Positions 4,660-54,176 of a stretch of 64,000 nt of DNA are shown here, piece after piece; the stretch's first letter is position 1; the number at the start of each line of letters is the position of its first letter. The notes beneath the pieces are model-generated. The model made no database searches. It saw nothing but the letters and a program-made list of their open reading frames with translations, and was not told the origin of the DNA. The stretch comes from Rhizophagus irregularis. Lineage: Eukaryota; Glomeromycota; Glomeromycetes; Glomerales; Glomeraceae. The stretch lies in contig NC_089440.1 of the NCBI RefSeq assembly GCF_026210795.1, forward strand, positions 496,001-560,000, written 5' to 3'. A program made the translations under genes and the position numbers.

Positions 4660-5380
4660 AAAGTTATTTGGAAGATTTAGAAAACATATTTAAAGAAACA
4701 AATTTAGAACATTTATTAGAAATCGATAATAGGTTTGACATAATTAAAAAAGTGTTCATGAAATTTAAAAGATAGTTTAAATTAGAAGAGGACTTTATAA
4801 AAAGTTTAGAATATAGTGAGAATGAAATTTACATATTTACAATAATGCGAGTAAAAAAGATAATAAGTGTAGTATTGAATAGGTTAAGCTTGATGCTATA
4901 GGGAAAGTATTAGATAAGAATTATTTAATAGTAATGAATAATTTTGACATGGTTGAGTTAGAATTAATGGCAATATTACAGCTTTAATAACAGTTAAATT
5001 TAATAATAGAATCGAAATTTATACAGATAATCTGGGAATTAATAATATATGGAACTGAGGAATTAATATGAACAACAAATGTTAATTCAGTTTCATTATG
5101 GAAAATGGTCTATAATTTTGTAAAGAAAAATAATTTAATTGTTCAATAAATAAGGTTAAATCTCATTTAAAAAATTTTGGAAATGATATAGCAGATTGAT
5201 TGTGCAAAGTGGGTTTACTTGAATATAATAATAATCATAAAATATTTATTAATATCAATGATAATGTACCATTATACCATGGAAGTATATGGTATATTGG
5301 AGAGGATTAATGGTTAAAGCAGATATAGATATTGTCACATGATTGATGATCTTGTCAATTTTGTAGAACAATGTAGATCT
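4660..5380 (+). pseudogene. Decayed non-LTR retrotransposon, RNase H remnant
   Basis: Two pieces match the RNase H domain found at the end of many fungal LINE polyproteins. EIYTDNLGI (5013-5039) corresponds to the YTD aspartate motif. VKSHLKNFGNDIAD (from about 5156), followed by an in-frame TGA and then LCKVG, corresponds to the terminal histidine and GN..AD motif. Frames change and several stops are present, so the copy is dead. The intact 2.65-kb retroelement is inserted directly downstream, probably into this relic. The reverse transcriptase part upstream is not recognisable. The family assignment rests on these motifs only. Confidence 0.5.
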
Positions 5381-5394
5381 ATGTCACCAATGTC
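5381..5394 (+). repeat. Left target-site duplication of the 2.65-kb retroelement
   Basis: ATGTCACCAATGTC is repeated exactly at 8047-8060. The two copies bracket the element, and a T just before each copy would allow a 15-bp reading. A direct repeat of this length next to a short-repeat tail is the signature of target-primed insertion. Confidence 0.9.
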
Positions 5395-5543
5395 GGGAAA
5401 AAAAAAAACTCTTTCCCCTTTCCGTTTTTTTTTTGTTAAAATTCCGCAGTAACCTATTTTCTCACGAATAAAAAATTTTTTTCAAGAGGAGAGGACCACG
5501 GGGTGGCCTCCACGGAAAGGCTTCCTCTTATCTCAACCGTCCC

Positions 5544-7619
5544 TTGAAAGAGTCAGAGATGGAATATAACACTATCTCTAAAGAATATATGCCACTAGAG
5601 GCTATTTCTTTCCCTACTTCACAAAATATTTTTCAAAAACCCACTTCTCACATTGAATATAGCTTCCTTATTTCGGTGAAAAAATTTCACGTGAATATTA
5701 ATAATCGTACCGGTTATAACAAGATTTATGAATTTAGACGCTCAAAAAGTTACTTTTTTGAGCTGGCCGATCAATTTTCAGGCACCAATGATATTCACCT
5801 CATCATACATACAAATGATTACATCATGCAGACTAAACCGATTCGGTATACCTCAACGAGTCCATTCCCCAACAACAAATACCAAATTAGTAAAATGCTC
5901 ACGCACTTCTTTTCCTTACAACGAGTCATACCACGACGTATACAACAAAGATATTTTAACCTTATCCGCCGCAAGCTATTGGATCAGTTTAATATTATCC
6001 GATCACGTGCAGGCAGTATTCTCTTACCCGATAATGAAGATCACCCTCACCCTGGAAGTCAACATAACAAATCTTCCAAAACTTTCTTCAATTTCTCGTA
6101 CAAGAGATATCGTTTTCACTTCGGCTGTTATATACCTTGCCAACATTTAATGACTTTGAAAAAGTCCAAAGACCTATCTCTTTGCCATATACCTAGTCCT
6201 TTTGTCATGACTAATAATCGTCATGCTTGTGTCGATCATCAACAAGAGTTCTTCCGAACTCGACTTTTCCATTTTACTAAACACAATAGTCTACAAGATC
6301 AAGTTTTGCTTAATTCCAAAACTTCCCATGCTACACACCTCTACCATAGATGGAATGAAGGCACTGAAAAACAAATTTTTTCTCGACGCCTCGGCATTGA
6401 ATACTCTATGAAATACCTGGCCGCCAGCAATAAAAACATCATACGCTCTCGTCACCGTAACATGTACCTTAAACGGTTATATAATTTCAAATTTATACCC
6501 TCTCCTAACTCAAAGACTAAAAGGAATCAACAGAAGCGTTTCGATAGAATTTGCAACAGAGTTTTTAATACCCGTTATGATTCAGCATGTATTGGTTTCG
6601 AAGTGAAACTTAAAGCTGCTCGAAAAAATCATTTTCTTTTTCACAAAAGTCAAACTATTCACAAAACCCTCTCACATCTTACTTACTCACGGAAATCAGC
6701 AATTCCTGATGCTGATGCTTACCCATTTTACATTCCGTTTTACGAACCGATTGGTGGACCTCCGGCCCCTAAAGAAGACCTCTTATTAGACGAACCCAAG
6801 ATTGCGTTCTCCAGCGTATTCCACGTTGATGTTCCTATAAATGCACCCCAACTTAAATTAAATTCATCAGAAATCTCGATGAATGATTTTAACTTCAACA
6901 ACTCTACAGACAATTTGACGTCAAACGATACTATTACTTTTTCACCACATCCTGCGCACGAGATGATTGCGACAGTGGAAAATTACAACCCGTTTGGAAA
7001 GTCCTTAGGTGATCAATTTACACCTTTCGTCCCTAGATCTCCCATCTACGATGTATACGGACGTTATTTACCACCTGATTCTGATGGATGGTTACGAGTT
7101 GTTAAAGACTCCTACGTATCAAGACAACAACCCGACCATGTGGCCGAGTTACTGGAATTACAGTCTAATAGGCGTACTAAACTCAAGCCTAAAGAATTTC
7201 AACGTCGGCTAACTAAGGCCAAACGTGATGCAACTTTACACCTTTATCACGGCACTAGCACCAAACACCTTCAACGTCGTCTAGACACTACGACCCACCT
7301 TACCAAACTACAAACAGTGCATGACCGGTTCATGAACTATGCAACCGGCAACTGTTCAAACAATCGTTATCAGCGTGAACAAAGACGTTACGTTACTTAT
7401 TTTGACTCCCTCCCAAAAAGATACATGCTCCCACACCTCGAGGACATCGCTTATAATGACACTTCTGACGATACCAAAAGCCTCGAAGTTCGTCCCAAGA
7501 AACGGGACACACTTACTAACATCTACGATCATTATCTTCACAGAGACCAAATTAAACGTCTACGACTGGATATGGGTTACCCTATTGACTCCCCTGTTTC
7601 TAGTTTGAACAAATCTTAG
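5544..7619 (+). CDS. Retroelement ORF, 691 aa, possible ORF1-type protein
   Basis: This intact ORF fills most of the 2.65-kb retroelement. I do not recognise a catalytic domain, and there is no YxDD reverse transcriptase box, no endonuclease signature and no zinc knuckle. The protein is rich in His, Arg, Lys, Tyr and Asn, which fits a nucleic-acid-binding role. A conserved patch at about residues 55-95 (GYNKIYEFRRSKSYFFE) recurs in the degraded copy at 11299-11628 as GYNKIYEFRRSKSFFFE, and FFNFSYKRYRFHFG recurs at about 11060. Conservation of these blocks while the rest decayed suggests they were under selection. A second Met lies 5 codons downstream of the first. By position it could be the RNA-binding ORF1 protein of a LINE, but this is inference. 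Confidence 0.7.
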   Translation: MKESEMEYNTISKEYMPLEAISFPTSQNIFQKPTSHIEYSFLISVKKFHVNINNRTGYNKIYEFRRSKSYFFELADQFSGTNDIHLIIHTNDYIMQTKPIRYTSTSPFPNNKYQISKMLTHFFSLQRVIPRRIQQRYFNLIRRKLLDQFNIIRSRAGSILLPDNEDHPHPGSQHNKSSKTFFNFSYKRYRFHFGCYIPCQHLMTLKKSKDLSLCHIPSPFVMTNNRHACVDHQQEFFRTRLFHFTKHNSLQDQVLLNSKTSHATHLYHRWNEGTEKQIFSRRLGIEYSMKYLAASNKNIIRSRHRNMYLKRLYNFKFIPSPNSKTKRNQQKRFDRICNRVFNTRYDSACIGFEVKLKAARKNHFLFHKSQTIHKTLSHLTYSRKSAIPDADAYPFYIPFYEPIGGPPAPKEDLLLDEPKIAFSSVFHVDVPINAPQLKLNSSEISMNDFNFNNSTDNLTSNDTITFSPHPAHEMIATVENYNPFGKSLGDQFTPFVPRSPIYDVYGRYLPPDSDGWLRVVKDSYVSRQQPDHVAELLELQSNRRTKLKPKEFQRRLTKAKRDATLHLYHGTSTKHLQRRLDTTTHLTKLQTVHDRFMNYATGNCSNNRYQREQRRYVTYFDSLPKRYMLPHLEDIAYNDTSDDTKSLEVRPKKRDTLTNIYDHYLHRDQIKRLRLDMGYPIDSPVSSLNKS

Positions 7620-7997
7620 ATTTTGTTAATTTTAACCTATTTTATGTAAACATTTGTAATGAGTCCAAAACTTTAATAGTCCTTTTTCCTTCATTTTACA
7701 CTAATCAACCTTACCCCTTATTAGCGTAAAAAGAAGTTTAACTAATTTAGAACAATTAAAAATAGTGTGAACCATTCCACCTCTGACAGTATTTACAGGT
7801 GGTCACCCTGGTGGGTGAAAAGAAAAATACGGGCTGTTTCTTTTTTATGTTTCGGTTGTTTTAGACTCCAGGTTATGCTTGATTGTTCTATAGAATAATG
7901 GGCAAGACGACCCCTTCGGGCTTCTCCTGAGAGGTTGGGTAAAACACTAGCTTAGAATTTATTGATCTTTTAGACCATGTTTATTCCTATTTAGCGT

Positions 7998-8046
7998 TCG
8001 ACTCCAGTCGAGTCTATATCTTAAAAATAAAAATAAAAATAAAAAT
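7998..8046 (+). other. Retroelement 3' end: hairpin plus AAAAAT repeat tail
   Basis: A short stem (GACTC, loop CAGTC, GAGTC) is followed within about 10 nt by four copies of AAAAAT and then by the right target duplication. In many LINEs the reverse transcriptase recognises a terminal stem-loop and the tail consists of a short tandem repeat. This pair is the likely recognition end. Confidence 0.55.
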
Positions 8047-8060
8047 ATGTCACCAATGTC
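8047..8060 (+). repeat. Right target-site duplication of the retroelement
   Basis: Exact copy of the 14-bp sequence at 5381-5394. Confidence 0.9.
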
Positions 8061-9639: not shown

Positions 9640-11855
9640 ATTCTCTAAAGTCATAAAAACATAATTTTTTTGTAACATGTGAATAGTCACCATCATTAAA
9701 ATAATGATTAATTTTTGAACGTCTTTTCTTGGACGAAGTTCCAAAGTTTTAGACTTTTAGTATTATTGGAAGTCTCTCCCATATTATTGGGAATAAATTC
9801 TAACTTGCGATTATTCCAAATCAGATGGGTAGATTTCACGGGATGATGTTAGTCCTTGAATTTATCAGGAAAGGTATTTGTGAAAAGATTGAAATCCTCT
9901 ATAAATTCTTCTAGATCCTTATCATAGAAAATACCATTGTCTGTACTAAAGCGGTACCAAAAAAAGTCTTGTGGTAATATTTATTAAAATCCATATAATA
10001 ACGTATCAATTCCTGTCGACGAGAATAATATTGTATTGACGTATTTGTGTCACAAGCCTGACTTATGTAATCATTATAAGTTTCCTGATCGATAATAGCT
10101 AATCGATCATGCTATAAAGTTGAACGTTTATACTTTTTCCCCAAAGTGGTCACCCTTAATTTGGGTGATTCTGATGATAAAGCCTGTTGAATATTCGATT
10201 CATTCGCAAGAGGTGTCATAGATATTGCCATAGGATTATGTACAGTCAACCCTTGTTATAACGAACCCTAAGTTCCAGACCTCAACTTCGCTATAGGGCT
10301 ATAGTGAAGATTTTAAGAGATTTGATTGGTTAATTCGTTATAGCAAGGGGAAATTTATTATAGTTGTCTGAAAAATTCACTATATCAAGGGTTCGTTATA
10401 TCAAGGTTTGACTGTAATTTGCTAATCTGATCATATGGAAAACGGAATAGAGGAACTGTAGGTACAGGTTTGATTAGAGAACTATTAAAACTTAAATGTT
10501 GAATCCTAGAGCGTAAATGCATGTCAATGTAGTAAGAAATCTATATCAAATTGACATGAATCTTCATTGAGGAATGCTTTTGTTTATTATAGATCTGCCA
10601 AGTGGCTCATTGAAATCGAGTCAGTTGTCTTGAAGAGGTTTGAGAATTGAAACTTAGATTCATTGTAAACTCACTATATTTTTTCATATACATATTTCCT
10701 TTAAACTCATTTGGAGTTATGATTGATGAAAGGTCACATGTGATGATGCGTGAATTATAATGAACACTCAATCTATTCAAAAAAATATGTTTTTTTGTCA
10801 TTTTGATGTAAGATTCATGAGTGATATTAGCATGAATGCTTTTGTGAGATGTGACTTGAAGAGGGACACGGTGATGCCGATTGTATTCAGAAGCGGGATC
10901 CAAATTATGGATTATTTGTGAGTGATGTTGTATACAAGTATGTCTATTATAATTTCTGACAAAAAGATAAGAAATAGCACATCTGTGATTCTTCACTTAA
11001 GGAAAGCTGTCCAAGCATGGGTGATTACATGCAACATAGATACCAAAATGAAATCTGTATCTTTTGTAAGAGAAATTAAAAAAAGTCTTTGTTGTGTTGT
11101 TAGAGAAAATGATTTTTTGATCACGTGATGTGATATAATTAATTCTATCCAATAATTTGGTGCGTATTAAATTAAAATATTTATTCTGAATACACCAAGG
11201 AATGACTTTTTGTTTCAAAAAAAAGTGCGTGAGGCATTTCGATATTTGAAATCAATGATTAGGTAATTTGCTTGTTGAATAGTACCAAATCGGAGTAGTT
11301 AACAACTTAACATATAATAATCATTCGTGTAAATCTTGAGATGAATTTCATTGGCGTCTGGAATTTGATTGACAACCTCAAAAAAGAAACTTTTTGAACG
11401 CCTAAATTCATAGATCTTGTTATAACCTGCTTTGGATGCAGCGGTCATGTGAAATTTTTCAAAAAAGACCAAGAAAGAAAATGAAGTTAAAGGTGGAGGT
11501 AGTGGTAAAGGAGTGTTGACTGTAGTAGTCGATAATATATTATCCTGTGGTTGTGTATTTGTATCCAAAACTATATTTTCAGCAAGTCCGTCTTCGCTAG
11601 TATATATGATATCGGATGGAGAGTCCAACTATCTATATGGTTTAAAAGATTCGTATAAAACTGAGAAAAAATCTATTTTGATGTGGTTTGAAGAAGTCAT
11701 ATCCCTAGTGTATGGGTTAGAATAAGAACAAAAACCTAGTATTGTGACTAAGGGCCTCTTCCCCTTTGAAGTTTTCTTAAAAAACTATAAAAAATTACTG
11801 TGTGCTATTTACTGCAGAAAACTAACAAAAATAAAAAAAGGGGAAAGAGTTTCCC
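9640..11855 (-). mobile_element. Degraded antisense copy of the 2.65-kb retroelement
   Basis: The right edge, read on the minus strand, starts GGGAAACTCTTTCCCC, matching the 5' end of the element at 5395. N-terminal (11299-11628), middle (10997-11218 and 10607-10996) and C-terminal (about 9700-9780, matching the region near 7440-7500) pieces of the same protein follow in order but in different frames with stops. A MITE is inserted at 10243-10414. The 3' end is too decayed to place, so the left boundary is approximate. Confidence 0.75.
10243..10414. mobile_element. Pogo/Tigger-like MITE, 172 bp
   Basis: The element has long imperfect terminal inverted repeats: left CAGTCAACCCTTGTTATAAC, right end in reverse complement CAGTCAAACCTTGATATAAC, both continuing into GAACCC. 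It is flanked by TA on both sides. CAGT termini and TA duplication are typical of the pogo branch of Tc1/mariner. It has no coding capacity and interrupts the degraded retroelement copy, so it is younger than that copy. Confidence 0.85.
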
Positions 11856-27262: not shown

Positions 27263-28580
27263 CAGATGGTGATCAAAAGTATACGGACATTTTAATTTGC
27301 CAAAATTATGCCGATCATCACGTGATGACGTAATATAAACAATACGTCATTTAACGCCTTATATCATAATAAAAACCTCCCCAATGTTTTTTTTTTAGTA
27401 AACATTCACCAAATATGAAGCCACTCACCCCAAAAACCCGATATGCGATTATTTATGGTTATAATTGTGGACAATCGGGCCGTTTAATTGCAGAACACTT
27501 GGGGTGTAGTAAAACTGCTGTTTATGATGTACTTAAACATTTTCGTGAAACTGGCTCTTTCACACCAAAAAAAAATCAGGTCGCCCTCCACTCTTTGACT
27601 CACCAGCACGACAAGAACTCAAAGCTTTTGTTAAAGAAAATGGTGAAAATCGTCGACTTTGTTCAAAAAAGCTTGCAACTGTTTGGACAGCTCGTAAAAA
27701 GCAACCTATTTCTGTGTGTACCATACGCCGAAACCTCAAAAAGGTTGGACTTAGTGCCTGTATTCCCCGTCATAAACCTGCAATGACAGAAGCACATCGT
27801 CAGGCTCGTCTTGAATGGGCTCTTGCACACAGAGATTGGACAACAAGAAAATGGAGAAGAGTGCTTTTTTCAGATGAAAGCACTTTTACACAATTTCAGA
27901 AAGGTCGTCAGGGAAGGGTTTGGCGTGAACCAGGAGAAGAATTGAATCCTGATTGTATTGCAGTTACCGTTAAACACAGTCCTAGCAGAATGTTTTGGGG
28001 TTGTTTCTCCTGGCGTGGGCTTGGACCAATTGTTCCGTTAAAAGGCTCAGTTACAGGTCAAACTCATGCTAAAATTATTCAAAACTATGTTGTACCTACT
28101 TTGGATGAGCATTTTCCACAGGGTAATGGAATTTTTCAAGAAGACAATGCTCCACCACATCGTTCAAAAGTCGCTATGGCCACCCGTGAAGATGCCAAAA
28201 TTGTGGTGCTTCAATGGCCAGCACAAAGCCCCGATTTGAACCCCATAGAGAACATGTGGGCAGAAATGAAAGCAATGGTGCATCGACGTGACCCACCACC
28301 ATCTAATATCAAAGTACTTGAGAAATATGTTAAAGATGCGTGGGATGATATTCCTCCAGAATATTATAAAAAATTAATTGATAGCATGCCACAGAGAATT
28401 GAGGCAGTTATTGCTGCAAATGGATATAGTATTAATTATTAATATATAATTTTTTTTTACATAAAATTAATAAAGGACAATCAGATTAATATATTTACTT
28501 AATAAATTTTATTTTTATTATATTATTTTATATGAAATTTTTATTTTAAAAAATGTCCGCATACTTTTGATCACCATCTG
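27263..28580 (+). mobile_element. Tc1-like DNA transposon, 1318 bp
   Basis: Terminal inverted repeats are CAGATGGTGATCAAAAGTAT at the left and CAGATGGTGATCAAAAGTAT in reverse complement at the right, with TA on both sides (27261-27262 and 28581-28582). The body carries one transposase gene with a single-base frameshift. The near-identical ends and mostly intact frame indicate recent arrival. The target was a TTA codon of the minus-strand gene around it. Confidence 0.95.
27415..28442 (+). pseudogene. Tc1-like transposase with one frameshift (DD34E)
   Basis: The N-terminal part (27415 to about 27565) carries the helix-turn-helix: SGRLIAEHLGCSKTAVYDVL. At about 27567-27575 a run of A residues is one base off, which shifts the frame. 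The downstream frame then reads without stops to 28442, beginning GRPPLFDSP and including WALAHRDWTTRKWRRVLFSD (first catalytic Asp), FQEDNAPPH (second Asp) and PAQSPDLNPIENMWAEMK. Exactly 34 residues separate the second Asp from the Glu of PIEN, the DD34E signature of the Tc1 branch. The total would be about 340 aa, the usual length. The indel is in a homopolymer, so a sequencing error is a real alternative and the element may be active. Confidence 0.85.
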
Positions 28581-32472: not shown

Positions 32473-35113
32473 TTAACTAATTTTAATACGTTTTCCTACT
32501 TTAAACATTTTAAATTTGATTAAAATAATATTAACATTAATAAAAAAAAAAATAAAAATAATCATCGTCGAGCCAAATAAACACTTACCAATATTTTCTT
32601 GGGTTTCAAGATTTAATTCTTCCTGGTTTCGCTTTTTTAAAGAGGTTGAGGAATTTTGAATTGTTATATTTTGTGATGATAAACTAAATTACAAGTTAAT
32701 ATCAATTAGTACATAATTAGTAATTAATTATTTAAAAATATAATTTTAAATACCCTTTAATATCTATATCAAGCTCTTTTTCTTTCGAAATATAATTGTA
32801 ATTATAATCTAAAGAAAATAATATGTATTGTAAAGATTATTTTATACTATTTTCTAATTACAGTTAACTTTTGTATAGTAATACCTTGTTTCTTACCGAA
32901 TGAAATTGTTGATGATGAATTTGTGGATAAACATTTAGAAATTAAAGCACTTAATGGCCTACTTGTATAAATAGCTTCTGGGTGACATTTTTCAGCAAAT
33001 TCAGGACCAATCTTCTTTGATTCTATCAGTCTTTTTCTTTTTGCTTCAGCTTGTTCAAATTCTGTTTCATTTATACCTTCACGAAACCAAGAATTAAGAG
33101 CTAAATAAATTTCTTTTATTGGTGGTCTTTTTTGGGGATCAGGATCCCAACAACTTTTCATTAAATTAGCATAACATTCTGGTGTATCTTCTGTAATATT
33201 AGGACGTTCTCCATCAAGAATTTTATAAATAAGATGAATATCATGCTTAACATTAGCAAAAGGTTTACAACCTGCTGTAATTTCCCACATGATCATACCC
33301 AAACTATATATATCAGCTTCTTTAGAAAATGCAGACCCTTTAAATATTTCTGGTGCAATATAAGGTATAACTCCATATATTTCATTATTTGATGATTCAC
33401 TATTTTCAGATTGTGATAATCCCAGATCCCCAATTTTCCATTGAAATACATCTAATAATATATTTCCGCTATGGAAATCTCTGCGTATAAATTTATTATC
33501 ATGAATATTATCAAGTCTAAATAAACCAAAAGTTAGTAACTTAATTTAAGAACATAATAATGTATTTAAAATATAAGTACCCTGCTGAAATAAGTCGTAA
33601 AATACGTAATTTATGATTTTTCCATGTAATATTTGTAAAATTATTTTGTAAATACTTATGTAAATCTCCTTTTGACGCATATTCCATAATTAATATATAA
33701 TCTTCTAATTCAGGATCTTTTGTAAAGCCATAAATTTGAATTATATAATTATTAACTTTGTCAATAAGTTGATTTGATTTTAGCTATTAAAATATAAAAT
33801 TTAATTAAGTATTAAAGACTAAATTATTTAGTAAAAACACTTATGAAAATATTTAAAAATATTCACCTCATTCAAGAAATATTTATTATTATTCTTAGAA
33901 TTTTCAAATCTTTTTAAAATGACAGTTTCATTATTAATTAACCAAGTTGCTTTATATATAATACCATATCCTCCTTTTGTCATTTCTTTTACATCTGTAA
34001 ATTGAGAATATGGTATCCACCTAATTGAGTTACTATTTTTTCCCTTAAAAATAGAATATAATAAAGTTGATGGCTTAAAATATTTATCAGTGGTTTTTAC
34101 AATATTTGCAAGCTTATCTAAATTTAATTTTTCATATATAGATGATATAATATAATAATTAAAAGGGAAATCATCAGGATTTCTGTTGTCTATAAGTGAT
34201 ATTCTTTTACATTTTTTACACTGAGATTGACTCGTAAGTCCAAAAATAATGTTTGTTGTTAAACAATAACTGCATCCGGTATAAAATATGAGACAATTTT
34301 TACAATACTTTTGACATTCTGATGTAAATATTAATTTTGACGAACAATTTTTACAATATATACTGTTGTACCACCATGGTAAGTAAAAAATTGGAATTCT
34401 CTTTTTGGCGAAGGTTGATTCTATCCACTCAAATGAAATTAGATAACAATCTGAGCATAGTCTTAATTGCATTATAACAGCAGTACGTTCATCTAGTGAC
34501 TTTCCACATATGATAATTGACAATGTTTTTCATCTTTAATCACCTTATTGTATAATATGTTGGTATAATTGTTATTAGTAGGGTATTTATTAAAAAATCC
34601 TATTATTTGTTTAAAACATAAAATTCTTATACAATTTCTACAGCATTCTTGAATACTTTGTGGTACTTTTCTTATCTCATGTTCATTACATTCCAATTCT
34701 ATTGTGTAATTATTGTATAATATGTTGGTATAATTGTTATTAGTAGGGTATTCATTACTAAAAGATCCTTTTGTATGTTTAAAACATAAAATTCTTATAC
34801 AATTTTTACAGAATTCTTGAATACTTTGTGGTACTTTTGTCTTACTTATCTCATGTTCATTACATTCCAATTCCATTGTGTAATGTATGTCCAAGTATAT
34901 ATTATTATCAGTTATATCATTAATATAACGCGATAAACATTTTTTGCAATATTTTTGGTCATGACAAAGAAGTGTCTCGATATATTTTTCTCCACAATAA
35001 ATACAAATTGTATTAAATCTATTAAAAGAAATAAACTTAATTGGTATAGGGCTAGATTTTAATCTTGGTGTTGGATCAAAAAATTTTTCATCATTTGTAT
35101 TTACAAGTTTCAT
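32473..35113 (-). pseudogene. TKL-like kinase with zinc knuckles, copy A (frameshifted)
   Basis: Exons on the minus strand: 35113-33867, 33783-33581, 33516-32885, 32808-32754, 32683-32589 and 32495-32473, the same six-exon structure as copy B. Exon 1 is five bases too long. Near 34507-34515 the segment that reads CAATTATGTGG in copy B contains an extra 5 nt, which breaks the frame within the zinc-knuckle region. With the 5 nt ignored the exons sum to 2250 nt. The HRD motif of the catalytic loop reads RRD (FIRRDFHSGN), and the DFG motif is DLG as in the sister copies. A 160-bp tandem duplication adds an extra Cys-rich block. It ends GKRIKIS. Frameshift and HRD change together argue for a dead or dying gene. 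An alternative intron around the insertion is possible but not seen. Confidence 0.7.
34545..34884 (-). repeat. Internal tandem duplication in kinase copy A
   Basis: Two copies (about 34545-34709 and 34710-34884) each encode a block with CxxC and ending in NNNYTNILYN. Sister copies B and C have a single block. The unit length difference keeps the frame. Confidence 0.85.
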
Positions 35114-44519: not shown

Positions 44520-46993
44520 CTAACTAGTTTTAATACGTTTTCCTACTTTTAAATATTTTAAATTTGATTAAAATAATATTAAAAGAAAATATAAATAAAT
44601 ATGATTAAAGCAAATGAATATTTACCACCACTATTATCTTGGGTTTCAAGATTTAATTCTTCATTGTTTCGCTTTTTTAATGAGGTTGAAGAATTTTGAA
44701 TTGTTATATTTTGTGATGATAAACTAAATTACAATTAAAATCAATTAATTAGTACACAATATAATACATTCAAAATATAATTGCAAATACCTTTCAACGT
44801 CTATGTCAAGCTCTTTTTCTTTCGAAATATAATTATAATTATAATCTAAGTAAATAATATTCATTTAAAGATTACTGTATATAATAATTTTTAATTGCAA
44901 TTAACTCTTTTTAGTAATACCTTCTTTATCGCCAAATGAAATTGTTGAGGATGAATTAATGGATGAACATTTAGAAATTATATCACTTAATGGTCTACTT
45001 GTATAAATGGCTTCCGGGTGACATTTTTCAGCAAATTCAGGACCAATCATCTTTGATTCTATCAGTCTGTTTCTTTTTACTTCAGCTTGTTCAAATTCTG
45101 CTGCGTATTTATAAGGCCACTTACGTAAATTTGAATAAAATTCTTTTATAGAAGGTCTTTTTTTTGGATCAGGGTCCCAACAACTTTTCATTAAATTGGC
45201 ATAACATTCTGGTGTATCTTCTGTAATTTTGGGTCGTTCTCCATCGAGAATTTTATAAATGAGATTATGGTCATGTTCAACATTAGCAAAAGGTTTACAA
45301 CCTGTTGTAAGTTCCCACATAACCATGCCAAAACTATAAATATCAGTTTCTTTAGAAAATGCAGACCCTTTAAATATTTCTGGTGCAATATAAGGCATAA
45401 CACCATATATTTCATTATTTGAAGATTCGTCATTTATAGATTGTGATAATCCTAGATCCCCAATTTTCCATTGAACTATATCAAGTAATATATTTCCGCT
45501 ATGGAAATCTCGATGTACAAATGTATTTTTGTGAATATATTCAAGTCTAAATAAAAAAGAAGTTAAAACTTAAATTTCAATAATATAAAAATTATATTTA
45601 AATATAATTACCCTTCTGTAATTTGCAATAAAATAATTAGTTTTTGATTATTCCATGTAATATTTGTAAAATTCTTTTGTAAATACTTATGTAAATCTCC
45701 TTCTGACGCATACTTCATAATTAATGTATAATCTTCTAATTCAGGATCTTTTGTAAAGCCATAATTTTTAATTATATAATTATCAAATTTATTAAAACAC
45801 TGTTGATTTGATCTTAACTATAAAATTTTAAGAATTAATAGTCAAAGATTAAAGACTAAATTAATTAATAAAAAATCATTCACAAAAATATTAAAAATAT
45901 TCACCTCATTTAAGAAATATTTATTATTAATTTTAGAATTTTCGAATTTTTTTAAAATGACAGTTTTATTATTACTTAACCAAGTTGCTTTATATATAAT
46001 ACCATATCCCCCTTTTGTCATTTCTTTTACATCTTTAAATTGAGAATATGATATCCGCCTAACTGGGATCATTTTTTTAAAAATAGAAGTTAATAGAATT
46101 GATGGTTCAAAATATTTATCAATGGTTTTTATAATATTTGTAATCTCTAAATTTAAGTTGTCATATGAATTATCATTAAGAAGGAAATCATCAAATACAT
46201 TTCTGTCTATAATAAGTGATATTCTTTTACATTTTTTACATTGGGTTTGATCTGTAAGTCCAAAAATAATGTTTGTTGTTAAACAATATCTGCATCCGGT
46301 ATAAAATATAAGGCAATTTGCACAATACTTTTGACAATCCGTTGTAAATGTTAAATCTGAGTAACATACGTCACAATGAGAATTATCATACCACCATGGT
46401 AAGTAAAGAAGTGAAATTTGCTTTTTAGACAAGGTTGATTCTGTCCATTCAAATGAAATTAGATAACAATTTGAGCATAATATAGGTCGCCATACATTTC
46501 TTTTACATATTATAGTAGGTTGCCATATATGTGTACTTTGAAATAGTGACTTTCCACATAATTGACAATGTTTTTTACTTTTAATCACCTTAGTGTATAT
46601 GTTGGAACTATTGCTATCATGATAATAATATTCATATAAATATCCTTCTATTTGGCTAAAACATAAAATTCTTACACAATTTCTACAACATTTTTGAATA
46701 CATTGTGATACCTTTGTCTTACTTATTTCATGTTCATTACTACATTTCAAGTACATTGTACAATATATGTCCAAGTATATATTATTATCAGTTATATCAT
46801 CAATATAAAGCGATAAACATTTTTTGCAATATTTTTGATTATGACAAAGAAGTGTCTCGATATATTTTTCTCCACAATAAATGCAATTTAAATCAAATCT
46901 ATTAAAAGAAATAAATTTAATTGGTATAGGACTAGATTTTAATCTTGGTGTTGGGTCAAAAAATTTTTCATTATTTTTATTTACAAGCTCCAT
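44520..46993 (-). CDS. TKL-like protein kinase with N-terminal zinc knuckles, copy B, 698 aa
   Basis: Six exons on the minus strand: 46993-45905, 45817-45612, 45546-44921, 44845-44791, 44723-44626 and 44542-44520. They sum to 2097 nt without a stop. Residues 37-300 contain at least five CxxC pairs (C37IYC40, then YCKKC, CCRNC, HCQLC, CANC, CKKC), probably zinc-binding and of no family I can name. The kinase domain starts at about 325: Gly loop KGGYGIIYK, VILK lysine at about 348, FLNE glutamate at 363, VHRDFHSGN at about 442, DLG in place of DFG, APE and the W-GxxPF-type helix (GCKPFANV). The last exons give a Ser-rich tail ending GKRIKTS. All catalytic residues are present, so it is probably active. 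Such kinases are greatly amplified in Rhizophagus. Confidence 0.85.
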
Positions 46994-48961: not shown

Positions 48962-49231
48962 CTATTCACAGTATACGTAATGATATACATTGTACTTCAG
49001 GCGTTTAGCTATTCGTAAAAGACAGGCCGTGTTGTGTAATTTTAATATTGATTGTCCTAAGAGTCCTGCTTGATTGTTGTGCTGTAAAATGTGGTGTTTG
49101 GATAGAAGATTGTTAAGTCTTTTACTCATAATGGATACCATAATCTTTCTTAGGGTTTCCAGTAGAGTAATAGGGCGTGTATTGTTACAAATTCGATTTT
49201 CTGATTTTATATTATTATTTGAGAATGTCAA
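48962..49231 (-). pseudogene. LINE reverse transcriptase fragment
   Basis: The minus strand encodes RPITLLETLRKIMVSIMSKR, then LSKHHILQHNNQAGLLG, which matches the first reverse transcriptase motifs of non-LTR elements (RPI.LL....K......RL, then Q.GF). The fragment covers only about 80 residues and no YxDD is present. Flanking minisatellite and T-rich DNA are inserted with it relative to copy A. Confidence 0.7.
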
Positions 49232-51699: not shown

Positions 51700-54176
51700 T
51701 TAACTAGTTTTAATACGTTTTCCTACTTCAAATATTTTAAAATTTGAATAATATTAGCATTAATAAAAAATAAAATAAACATCATCAAGCTAAATAAACA
51801 TTTACCACTATCGTCTTGGGGTTCAAGATTTAATTCTTCCTGGTTTCGCTTTATTAAAGAGGTTGAGAATTTTTGAATTGTTATATTTTGTGATGATAAA
51901 CTAAATTTCAAGTTAATATCAATTAGTAGTACATAATTTAGTTATAAAAATATAATTTAAAATACCTTTTAATATCTATATCAAGCTCTTTTTCTTTTGA
52001 AATATAGTTATAAGTATAATCTAAAGAAAATGCATTTTAAAGATTACTATAAATAATAATTTTAATTACAATTAAATTTTTTGTAGTAGTACCTTGGTTA
52101 TTACCAAATGAAATTGTTGATGATGAATTTGTGGATAAACATTTAGAAATTAAAGCACTTAATGGCCTACTTGTATAAATTGCCTCCGGGTGGCAATTTC
52201 CAGCAAATTCAGGACCAATTTTCTTTGATCCTATCAGTTTCTTTCTTATTGCTTCAGCTTGTTCAAATTCTACTTTATTTTCATTTGTAAAATACCAAAT
52301 ATCAATTATGAAAAAAATTTTTCCTATAGAAGGTCTTTTTTTTGGATCAGGATCCCAACAACTTTTCATTAAATCAGCATAACATTTTGGTGTATCCTCT
52401 GTAATATTGGGTCGTTCTCCATCAAGAATTTTATAAATAAGATGAATATCATGTTCAACATTAGCAAAAGGTTTACAACCTGTTGTAAGTTCCCACATAA
52501 TCATACCGAAACTATAGATATCAGCCTCTTTAGAAAACGCAGCCCCTTTAAATATCTCTGGTGCAATGTAAGGTATAACTCCATATATTTCATTGTTTAA
52601 TGATTTACTACTTTCAGACTGCGATAATCCCAGATCCCCAATTTTCCATTGAAATACATCTAATAATATATTTCCGCTATGAAAATCTCGATGTATAAAT
52701 TTATTCTTATGAATATATTCAAGTCTAAATAAAAAAAAGTTAATTACTGAAATTTTAAGAATATAATGAGCACATTTAAAATATAAATACCCCTTTGAAA
52801 TTTCCTGTAAAATATGTAGTTTTTGATTATAACGATTACTCCACGCAATACTTGTAAAATTCTTTTGTAAATATTTATGTAAGTCTCCTTCTGACGCATA
52901 TTCCATAACTAAAATATAATCATCTGATTCAGGTTCTTTTGTGTAACCATAAACTTCAATTATATAATTATGAAGTGGTTTATTTTTACAATGTTGATTT
53001 GATATTAACTATTAAATTTAAAGATTTAATTAAGGCAGGATTAAAGACTAAATTATTTAGTAAAAATCACTTACGAAAATATTTAGAAATACTCACTTCG
53101 TTTAAGAAATATTTAATATTATTTTTAGAACGTTCAAATCTTTTTAAAATGATTTCTCTATCTAAATCATCATGTGCTGGCCAAATTGCTTTATATATAA
53201 TACCATATCCCCCTTTTGTTATTTCTTTTACATTTTTAAATTGAGAATATGGTATCCACTTAACTAATTTTACAATACGTACGTTTTTAAAAATAGAATT
53301 TAATAGAGTTTCTGGTACAAAATATTTATCAATTGAGTTTGCAATATCATGACCAAAATCTAAATTGTAATATATCATATTATTAAGAAAGAAATCAATA
53401 AGATAACAATCTGCATTACTACACAAAGTGAGTGATATTCTTTTGCATCTTCTACATTGAGTTTTGCCTGTAATTCCAAAAATAATGTTTGTTGTTAAAC
53501 AATATCTGCATCCGATATAAAATACAAGACAATTTTTACAATACTTTTGACATTCTGATATAAATATTAATCTTGACGAACAATTTATACAATATAAATT
53601 GTTGTGCCACCATGGTAAGTAAAGAATTGAAACTTGCTTTTTAAACATGGTTGATTCTACACATTCAAAAGAAATTAGATAACAATCTGAGCATAGTCTT
53701 AATTGCTTTACAGTAGTACGTTCATCTAGTGACTTTCCACATAATTTACAATGTTTTTCACTTTCAATCACCTTATTGTATAATATGTTGATAACATTGT
53801 TATTAGTAGGGTATTCATTAAAAGATCCTATTATTTGTTTAAAATATAAAATTCTTATACAATTTCTATAATTTCTACAACATTTTTGTGGTACTTTTGT
53901 CTTACTTATCTCATGATGTACACTATATTCCAAGACCATTGTGTAATATATGTCCAAATATATATTATCATCAGTTATATCATTAATATAACGCGATAAA
54001 CATTTTTTGCAATATTTTTGATCATGACAAAGAAGCGTCTCGATATATTTTTCTCCACAATAAATACAATTTAAATCAAATTTATTAAAAGAAATAAATT
54101 TAATTGGTATAGGACTAGATTTTAATCTTGGTGTTGGGTCAAAAAATTTTTCATTTTTTGTATTTGCAAGTTCCAT
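51700..54176 (-). CDS. TKL-like protein kinase with zinc knuckles, copy C (exon 2 indel)
   Basis: Exons on the minus strand: 54176-53097, 53010-52791, 52724-52093, 52020-51966, 51900-51806 and 51722-51700. The layout equals copy B, but the sum is 2105 nt, so one base is missing or two are extra. The break is in exon 2 near 52976-52990, in an A-rich stretch (AAAAATAAAAACC on the coding strand); upstream and downstream frames are otherwise open. The zinc-knuckle N-terminus (C37IYC40 and others), Gly loop KGGYGIIYK, ILKRF lysine, IHRDFHSGN, DLG, APE and tail GKRIKTS are all present. The intron at 52725-52790 is 66 nt with no in-frame stop, so its retention would not break the frame. The gene is either newly dead or carries a homopolymer error. 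Confidence 0.7.

Follow-up and report, generated by a model that had tools for sequence, protein, structure and literature searches.

A protein-coding retroelement of Rhizophagus irregularis with its own structured RNA, an exchangeable LINE 3' end and a probable dependence on LINEs

To our knowledge, almost every parasite of long interspersed nuclear elements (LINEs) is short and non-coding, and the few coding ones, HeT-A and HAL1, use the gag-like gene of a LINE. HAL1 derives from L1; it has kept a single open reading frame (ORF), ORF1, has no reverse transcriptase (RT) and is presumed to be mobilised by LINEs. SIDEs share ends with their LINE. Among short interspersed nuclear elements (SINEs), DeuSINEs combine a modular body with a LINE-derived 3' end, and one SINE body occurs with several tails. 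HeT-A of Drosophila telomeres is a non-long-terminal-repeat element with a protein under selection and without RT, which uses the enzyme of a partner, and the Gag of TAHRE closely resembles that of HeT-A (PMC5537684). Here we describe a 2.7-kb element at positions 5380–8060 of a 64,000-nt window of R. irregularis DNA (NC_089440.1, 496,001–560,000; the window is the whole stretch analysed, and positions refer to it unless another locus is named).

The element is read as a recently inserted, intact copy of a modular, LINE-dependent, protein-coding satellite retroelement (probability roughly 0.7). Its anatomy comprises its own 5' end, a family-specific protein ORF, its own structured RNA and an exchangeable LINE 3' end. 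We hold this anatomy and the dependence on LINEs with high confidence; that the protein binds its own RNA is a more tentative proposal, with slightly less than even odds. The features of the window copy are the following:

5380–5394, plus strand: 5' copy of the target-site duplication (TSD), TATGTCACCAATGTC, 15 bp (exact-repeat search)
5395–5450, plus strand: conserved 5' end of the family, an A-tract and CTCTTTCCCCTTT ... CCGCAGT
5559–7619, plus strand: ORF of 686 amino acids (aa), with a conserved core at aa ~29–396 and a variable C-terminal half (ORF reading, alignments)
7748–7838, plus strand: conserved structured RNA of the family, in the 3' untranslated region (UTR) (fold, covariation, covariance model)
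7860–8045, plus strand: captured LINE 3' end, 98.4% identical over 190 bp to LINE L013
7998–8011, plus strand: terminal hairpin TCGACT CC AGTCGA, present also in the partner LINE with one pair fewer
8023–8046, plus strand: (AAAAAT)4 tail (sequence reading)
8046–8060, plus strand: 3' copy of the TSD (exact-repeat search)

The satellite resembles HeT-A in having a selected protein without RT and an apparently borrowed LINE enzyme. It differs from HeT-A in that its protein is unrelated to ORF1 of three partner LINEs, its copies are dispersed without telomeric arrays (as judged without a telomere map) and the tails of several LINEs are exchanged. Unlike HAL1, only its 3' end can be traced to a LINE. 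With CORE- and V-SINEs (a LINE partnership of the stringent type) it shares a modular body and a LINE-derived 3' end, but SINEs are short and non-coding, whereas the satellite is 2.7 kb long with a selected 686-aa ORF and its own covarying RNA. Like SIDEs, it is a non-autonomous relative of a LINE; unlike SIDEs, which are internal deletions, it shares with LINE a (L013) neither the 5' end nor an ORF. An autonomous LINE is rejected, as no RT is encoded. The element is placed with the LINE-dependent elements; it would operate like a SINE or HeT-A, as a non-autonomous user of LINE enzymes, and belongs to none of HAL1, HeT-A and the SINEs. No such element was found described in the titles and abstract openings of the open-access literature searched, a comparison outside which repeat databases lie.

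The original prediction, made from the sequence of the window, described a LINE-type insertion of an RT-less, protein-coding, non-autonomous element, and the TSD, the A-rich tail and the intact ORF bear this out. The perfect 14-bp duplication ATGTCACCAATGTC is present exactly twice in the 64 kb (5381–5394 and 8047–8060; mean 0.00 in 100 shuffles) and reaches 15 bp once the preceding T is included. The tail has the four AAAAAT units predicted. The 3' hairpin exists as well, but it is not strong evidence by itself, because the whole tail folds little better than shuffled sequence (z −1.25; 19 of 200 shuffles fold equally well). The conserved structured RNA and the tail exchange described below were absent from that prediction.

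A LINE that shares this 3' end and encodes an RT, for which a search had been proposed, was found. L013 has an 18-bp TSD, an ORF1 frame of 787 codons and an open ORF2 frame of 2119 codons with Exo_endo_phos, RVT_1 and RNase_H domains, that is, endonuclease, RT and RNase H. The TAG at 7862–7864 of the window corresponds to the stop codon of the partner's ORF2, and the match begins before this stop by 4 nt in the window copy, 21 nt in L005 and 35 nt in L006. The genome searched comprises 146.7 Mb in 32 contigs; the last part of the element (7858–8024) has at least 41 matches in it (the best 40 of 53 candidates scored). Among 29 elements, 27 match one of five LINE ends, with identities of 70–99.6% (a, 5; b, 3; c, 8; d, 4; e, 7); L017, L018, L041 and L044 had been fetched by their tails, and without these four 23 of 25 match. 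The partners of tails b (L038) and e (L043) both carry RT and RNase H. The partner of tail d (L058/L059) is homologous to the stretch of ORF2 of LINE b with the RNase H domain and beyond, the fetched stretch being without RT, and the partner of tail c (L040) is decayed and shows ORF2 homology only. ORF2 identities are 46% between b and e, 38% between b and a, and 34% between e and a. A 48-aa scrap of LINE ORF2 RT, 71% identical to the tail-b LINE, lies in the window itself (49040–49183, minus strand).

The ORF1 proteins were compared for partners a, b and e out of the five. Their frames have 787, 635 and 781 codons, respectively, with one CX2CX4HX4C knuckle each, and ORF1 of b and of e is 36% and 64% identical to that of a. 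The knuckle is absent from the 686-aa protein. No relation of the latter to ORF1 of LINEs b and e was detected by hmmsearch at E ≤ 10, and hhalign of the satellite protein against LINE ORF1 gave probabilities of 0.2–0.3% (ORF1 of LINE a entered as 699 aa). At their 5' ends, LINE a and the window element share only short matches at chance level. The suggestion that a LINE had kept an ORF1-type protein, loosely as in HAL1, does not hold, as partners a, b and e own unrelated CCHC ORF1s. The window element is therefore not a LINE deprived of its ORF2; its body is unrelated, and its 3' end was captured from a LINE.

Tails have been exchanged between protein lineages. L012 and L041 are 41% identical in the core and 98.5% identical over 262 bp of tail, and L009 and L044 are 52% identical in the core and 97% over 240 bp of tail; near-identical tails beside such core identity mean that the tails were exchanged and are younger than the proteins. 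In a tree of the cores (29 rows) tails a, b and e each form one group, while tail c needs three changes (two forced by supported branches) and tail d two (both forced). For this count the weak matches L023 and L025 (c) and L036 (d) were given labels of their own, and three rows carried no tail label. Tail d does not cluster significantly in the tree (33 of 500 shuffles as low), and the placement of L036, on a long branch, is unsure.

A SINE-like head of 285 bp, 99.6% identical in two loci, is joined to tail e in one and to tail b in the other:

L039, C11:4047700–4051850: SINE-like head near the tail end
L042, C1:1880940–1884600: SINE-like head near the tail end

ARAGORN found no tRNA gene and Rfam gave no match in this head. 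One head with two tails shows that tail trading extends beyond the satellite family. Both loci have the same tails as satellites and no protein, which suggests that an element can be copied without the protein; the RNA encoding the protein must then draw some further advantage from it.

The ORF counts 686 aa from the first ATG (715 codons from stop to stop), not 691 as first given, and its product is mildly basic (His 5.1%, Arg 7.7%, Lys 7.3%) rather than His/Arg-rich. The absence of RT and endonuclease motifs was predicted correctly: the protein matches no Pfam family at E ≤ 5, hence neither enzyme is detected. Pfam searches with 29 family cores gave scattered weak matches only (best E 0.012; none for the window protein), and a profile search of the PDB with the family protein gave a single chance match (E 4.2). 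The first AF2 model had a predicted local distance difference test score (pLDDT) of 56.7; that of the core reached pLDDT 70.9 with a predicted template modelling score of 0.49. Foldseek of the predicted models against PDB and BFVD found nothing at E ≤ 0.001, the core model being of moderate confidence so that a known fold is possible, and VIA found nothing at Z ≥ 5 among 422 aligned chains with the same core model. A short motif, TSDDTK.LE.RP.KR (alignment consensus; window 7461–7505), is kept in the otherwise variable C-terminal half.

Internal deletion of a longer LINE was also considered and rejected. Longer copies with an RT between the ORF and the 3' end were not seen: eight family loci of 8 kb have no ORF of at least 150 aa between protein and tail, and the LINE ORF1 and 5' end are unrelated to the element. 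There is no room for an RT either, because the structured RNA starts 43–643 nt after the stop codon in the 26 copies measured. An RT-like [FYA]xDD flag in L009 proved to be part of that locus's own 830-codon family frame, and Pfam finds no RT in its core.

The protein search of the genome gave at least 75 coding matches at E ≤ 0.001 (the best 65 of 468 candidates scored); several loci yield more than one match, so that copy numbers of the family are rough. Of the copies, one is 95% identical and has a single stop, another is 76% identical and stop-free, and most matches cover only aa ~20–400 at about 45–55% identity. The first-round sample comprised 26 loci and the window; of these loci, L017 and L018 were picked by tail and the other 24 by protein, mostly because their frames were open, and intactness cannot be used as a rate for this reason. 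Alignments of 23 family proteins and of 29 family cores (conserved core ~360 aa) each have 44 invariant columns. The ratio of nonsynonymous to synonymous substitution rates (dN/dS; Nei-Gojobori, frames of at least 600 codons) is 0.21–0.48 in the 22 closest pairs, which are not independent of one another; the window copy and the 77%-identical L006 give 0.33 overall, with 0.23 in the core and 0.41 in the C-terminal half. From these values the protein seems to be maintained along lineages that go on multiplying.

The 5' end of the element is marked by CTCTTTCCCC. The terminus A(n)CTCTTTCCCCTTT (up to 3 edits) with CCGC[A/T]GT 18–22 nt further on is present in 22 of 27 copies, and the 5' DNA of the window element has at least 40 genome matches (the best 40 of 72 candidates scored). 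Exact TSDs of 11–20 bp flank 19 of the 27 copies; the script found none in the other eight, five of which are without a recognised tail. The window copy lies at 0.50 Mb on a 5.13-Mb contig, and family copies are dispersed over many contigs with ordinary TSDs. No relatives of the protein were found in viral contigs or prokaryote genomes, collections that hold no fungal genomes as such and are silent on its spread among fungi.

Between the stop codon and the tail all 27 copies examined have an RNA element of ~90 nt with the following parts:

7777–7802, plus strand: helix P1 (7777–7782 with 7797–7802), compensatory change at 4 of 6 pairs, 100% of cells paired
7803–7818, plus strand: helix P2 (7803–7808 with 7813–7818), compensatory change at 5 of 5 modelled pairs, 99.2% of cells paired
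7789–7830, plus strand: candidate pseudoknot GUAUU (7789–7793) with AAUAC (7826–7830), pairing possible in all 24 distinct sequences

RNAalifold predicts two adjacent helices of 6 and 5 pairs, with compensatory changes at 9 of the 11 pairs and one unpaired cell; P2 has a sixth pair in the window copy. Helices and candidate pseudoknot together pair in 99.7% of cells versus 90.8% in shuffled and 33–46% in slid alignments, and double changes occur in 44 cells versus 12.7 in shuffles. The candidate pseudoknot is unproven: one of its pairs varies from G-C to G-U, and compensatory changes are absent. The helices are compact, many unpaired positions are invariant, and the single-sequence fold of the window RNA is moderately better than that of shuffles (z −1.95; 7 of 200 as good). 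The RNA begins 43–189 nt past the stop in 24 of the 26 measured copies, the outliers being L007 (643 nt; its frame ends early) and L017 (304 nt).

A pattern of the fixed positions, with up to one mismatch, has 207 sites in the genome and none in the reversed control. Among 12 sites examined, taken from the first 100 places, 10 have family coding similarity upstream. L049 (RNA at 2373–2460 of the locus) and L056 (2423–2513) show none in ~2.4 kb upstream and are possibly RNA-only derivatives or old copies. The covariance model matches all 17 RT-less sources and none of the 14 sources that are LINEs, SINEs or solo tails. The negatives include several copies of one LINE; among the positives, 12 had been picked with the pattern and the window itself had gone into building the model, so that only L041, L044, L057 and L060 are independent of both. 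Neither the RNA nor the window element matches an Rfam family at E ≤ 5, and the exact RNA pattern is absent from the viral contigs of the collection mentioned above.

A mode of propagation can be proposed from these data. Transcription would start at the element's own 5' end and be followed by translation of the protein. The protein would bind the same RNA, most likely at the structured element of the 3' UTR, to form a ribonucleoprotein (RNP) with cis preference; such a particle is suggested because the protein is under purifying selection and ORF and RNA are linked in every copy read. Action in cis is further argued for because a protein serving all tail-bearing RNAs equally is not expected to be under selection in each lineage, and the element-linked RNA may be its natural address label. 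The ORF2 protein of the matching LINE would recognise the borrowed tail, as in LINE-SINE pairs of the stringent type, and prime reverse transcription at the nicked target; the shared tails, TSDs and A-rich ends point to this. New tails would be acquired through template switching, or recombination, onto LINE RNA, since the present ones extend into the final ORF2 codons and postdate the protein lineages.

Several observations weigh against this reading. None of the five LINEs matches the tail of L024 or that of L034, the tails of L023, L025 and L036 match at 70–77% only, and the partners of tails c and d showed no intact RT. One of five covariation measures, the number of further pair types, is unremarkable (17 versus 15.4 shuffled; 56 of 500 as high). 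Two of the 12 RNA sites examined (L049, L056) are without detectable family coding sequence upstream. Across 24 elements the divergence of the RNA follows that of the protein only weakly (Mantel r 0.20, with 12 of 2000 permutations at least as high), perhaps owing to the strong conservation of the RNA. The core, in its moderate-confidence model, has no known fold hinting at RNA binding, and the proposed steps of binding, expression and mobilisation are read from sequence.

The shared LINE 3' end and the single upstream ORF would also fit a HAL1-like origin, in which a LINE lost ORF2 and kept a diverged ORF1. This origin is largely refuted and very improbable, because LINEs a, b and e own homologous CCHC ORF1s dissimilar to the satellite protein, the window element resembles LINE a at the 5' end no more than by chance, and the subfamilies bear the tails of different LINEs. 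It is equally hard to credit that the copies are serial processed retrocopies of a host gene: one uninterrupted ORF, an A-rich tail and TSDs would be expected of these too, but a common 5' terminus in 22 of 27 copies, five kinds of LINE tail and selection between copies would not.

Other explanations concern the role of the protein and of the RNA. The most credible among them, though still unlikely, takes the structured RNA for a self-cleaving ribozyme, a nuclease-resistant block or a translation element and not for a protein-binding site. Compact helices with many invariant unpaired positions, a possible pseudoknot and the regular placement after the stop codon agree with such a function, against which stands the lack of an Rfam family at E ≤ 5. 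It is doubtful that the protein serves in counter-defence and shields its own transcript, for instance from RNA silencing. Selection on a protein that copying should not need, to judge from the tail-bearing SINEs, speaks for this role; however, no domain or fold match was found, and counter-defence alone leaves the linkage of RNA and ORF in 27 of 27 copies unexplained. Slightly less probable again is a bipartite mutualism, with the protein aiding LINEs in trans, for example in targeting or RNP assembly. The tails do tie elements to particular LINEs, and HeT-A and TART are said to collaborate in this way (PMC5537684), but LINEs a and e have long open frames of both ORF1 and ORF2, and tails are swapped between protein lineages.

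The modular satellite with a protein acting on its own RNA may represent a separate, hitherto undescribed class of retroelement, an assignment that we advance only tentatively and with somewhat less than even confidence. It would be a LINE satellite that inherits an RNP protein and a recognition RNA as a pair and docks through an interchangeable LINE 3' end, which it switches among at least five LINE lineages; its protein, unrelated to LINE ORF1, would serve in cis as a chaperone or in packaging. The family, which is diverse, adds a different selected protein and a conserved RNA structure to the coding parasites of LINEs. Questions that become testable are the benefit to a selfish RNA of encoding a protein while its copying enzyme is borrowed, the frequency with which LINE tails change hands, and whether a protein-RNA pair outside a LINE can confer cis preference. 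About two-thirds of the transposable elements of R. irregularis were reported as unclassified before recent curation (PMC11075540). The RNA motif and the covariance model supply a means of recognising part of these repeats.

A second family member is present in the window near the intact copy. It is decayed, as had been noted, and belongs to a different subfamily:

10427–11852, minus strand: second family member, decayed, nearest to L036/L037 (tblastn and blastn)

Further ORFs of the window lie apart from these elements. On the plus strand an ORF of 219 aa (27783–28442) presumably corresponds to the C-terminal catalytic part of a Tc1/mariner-type transposase, which it resembles. On the minus strand the region of 33–55 kb contains related ORFs (33828–35113, 45842–46993 and 53067–54176), and we take the pieces at 44901–45398 and 52037–52906 to be kinase-like. 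Most probably, the ORFs of this region are an expanded and partly broken family, which we assume to combine a cysteine-rich N-terminal region with a protein kinase.

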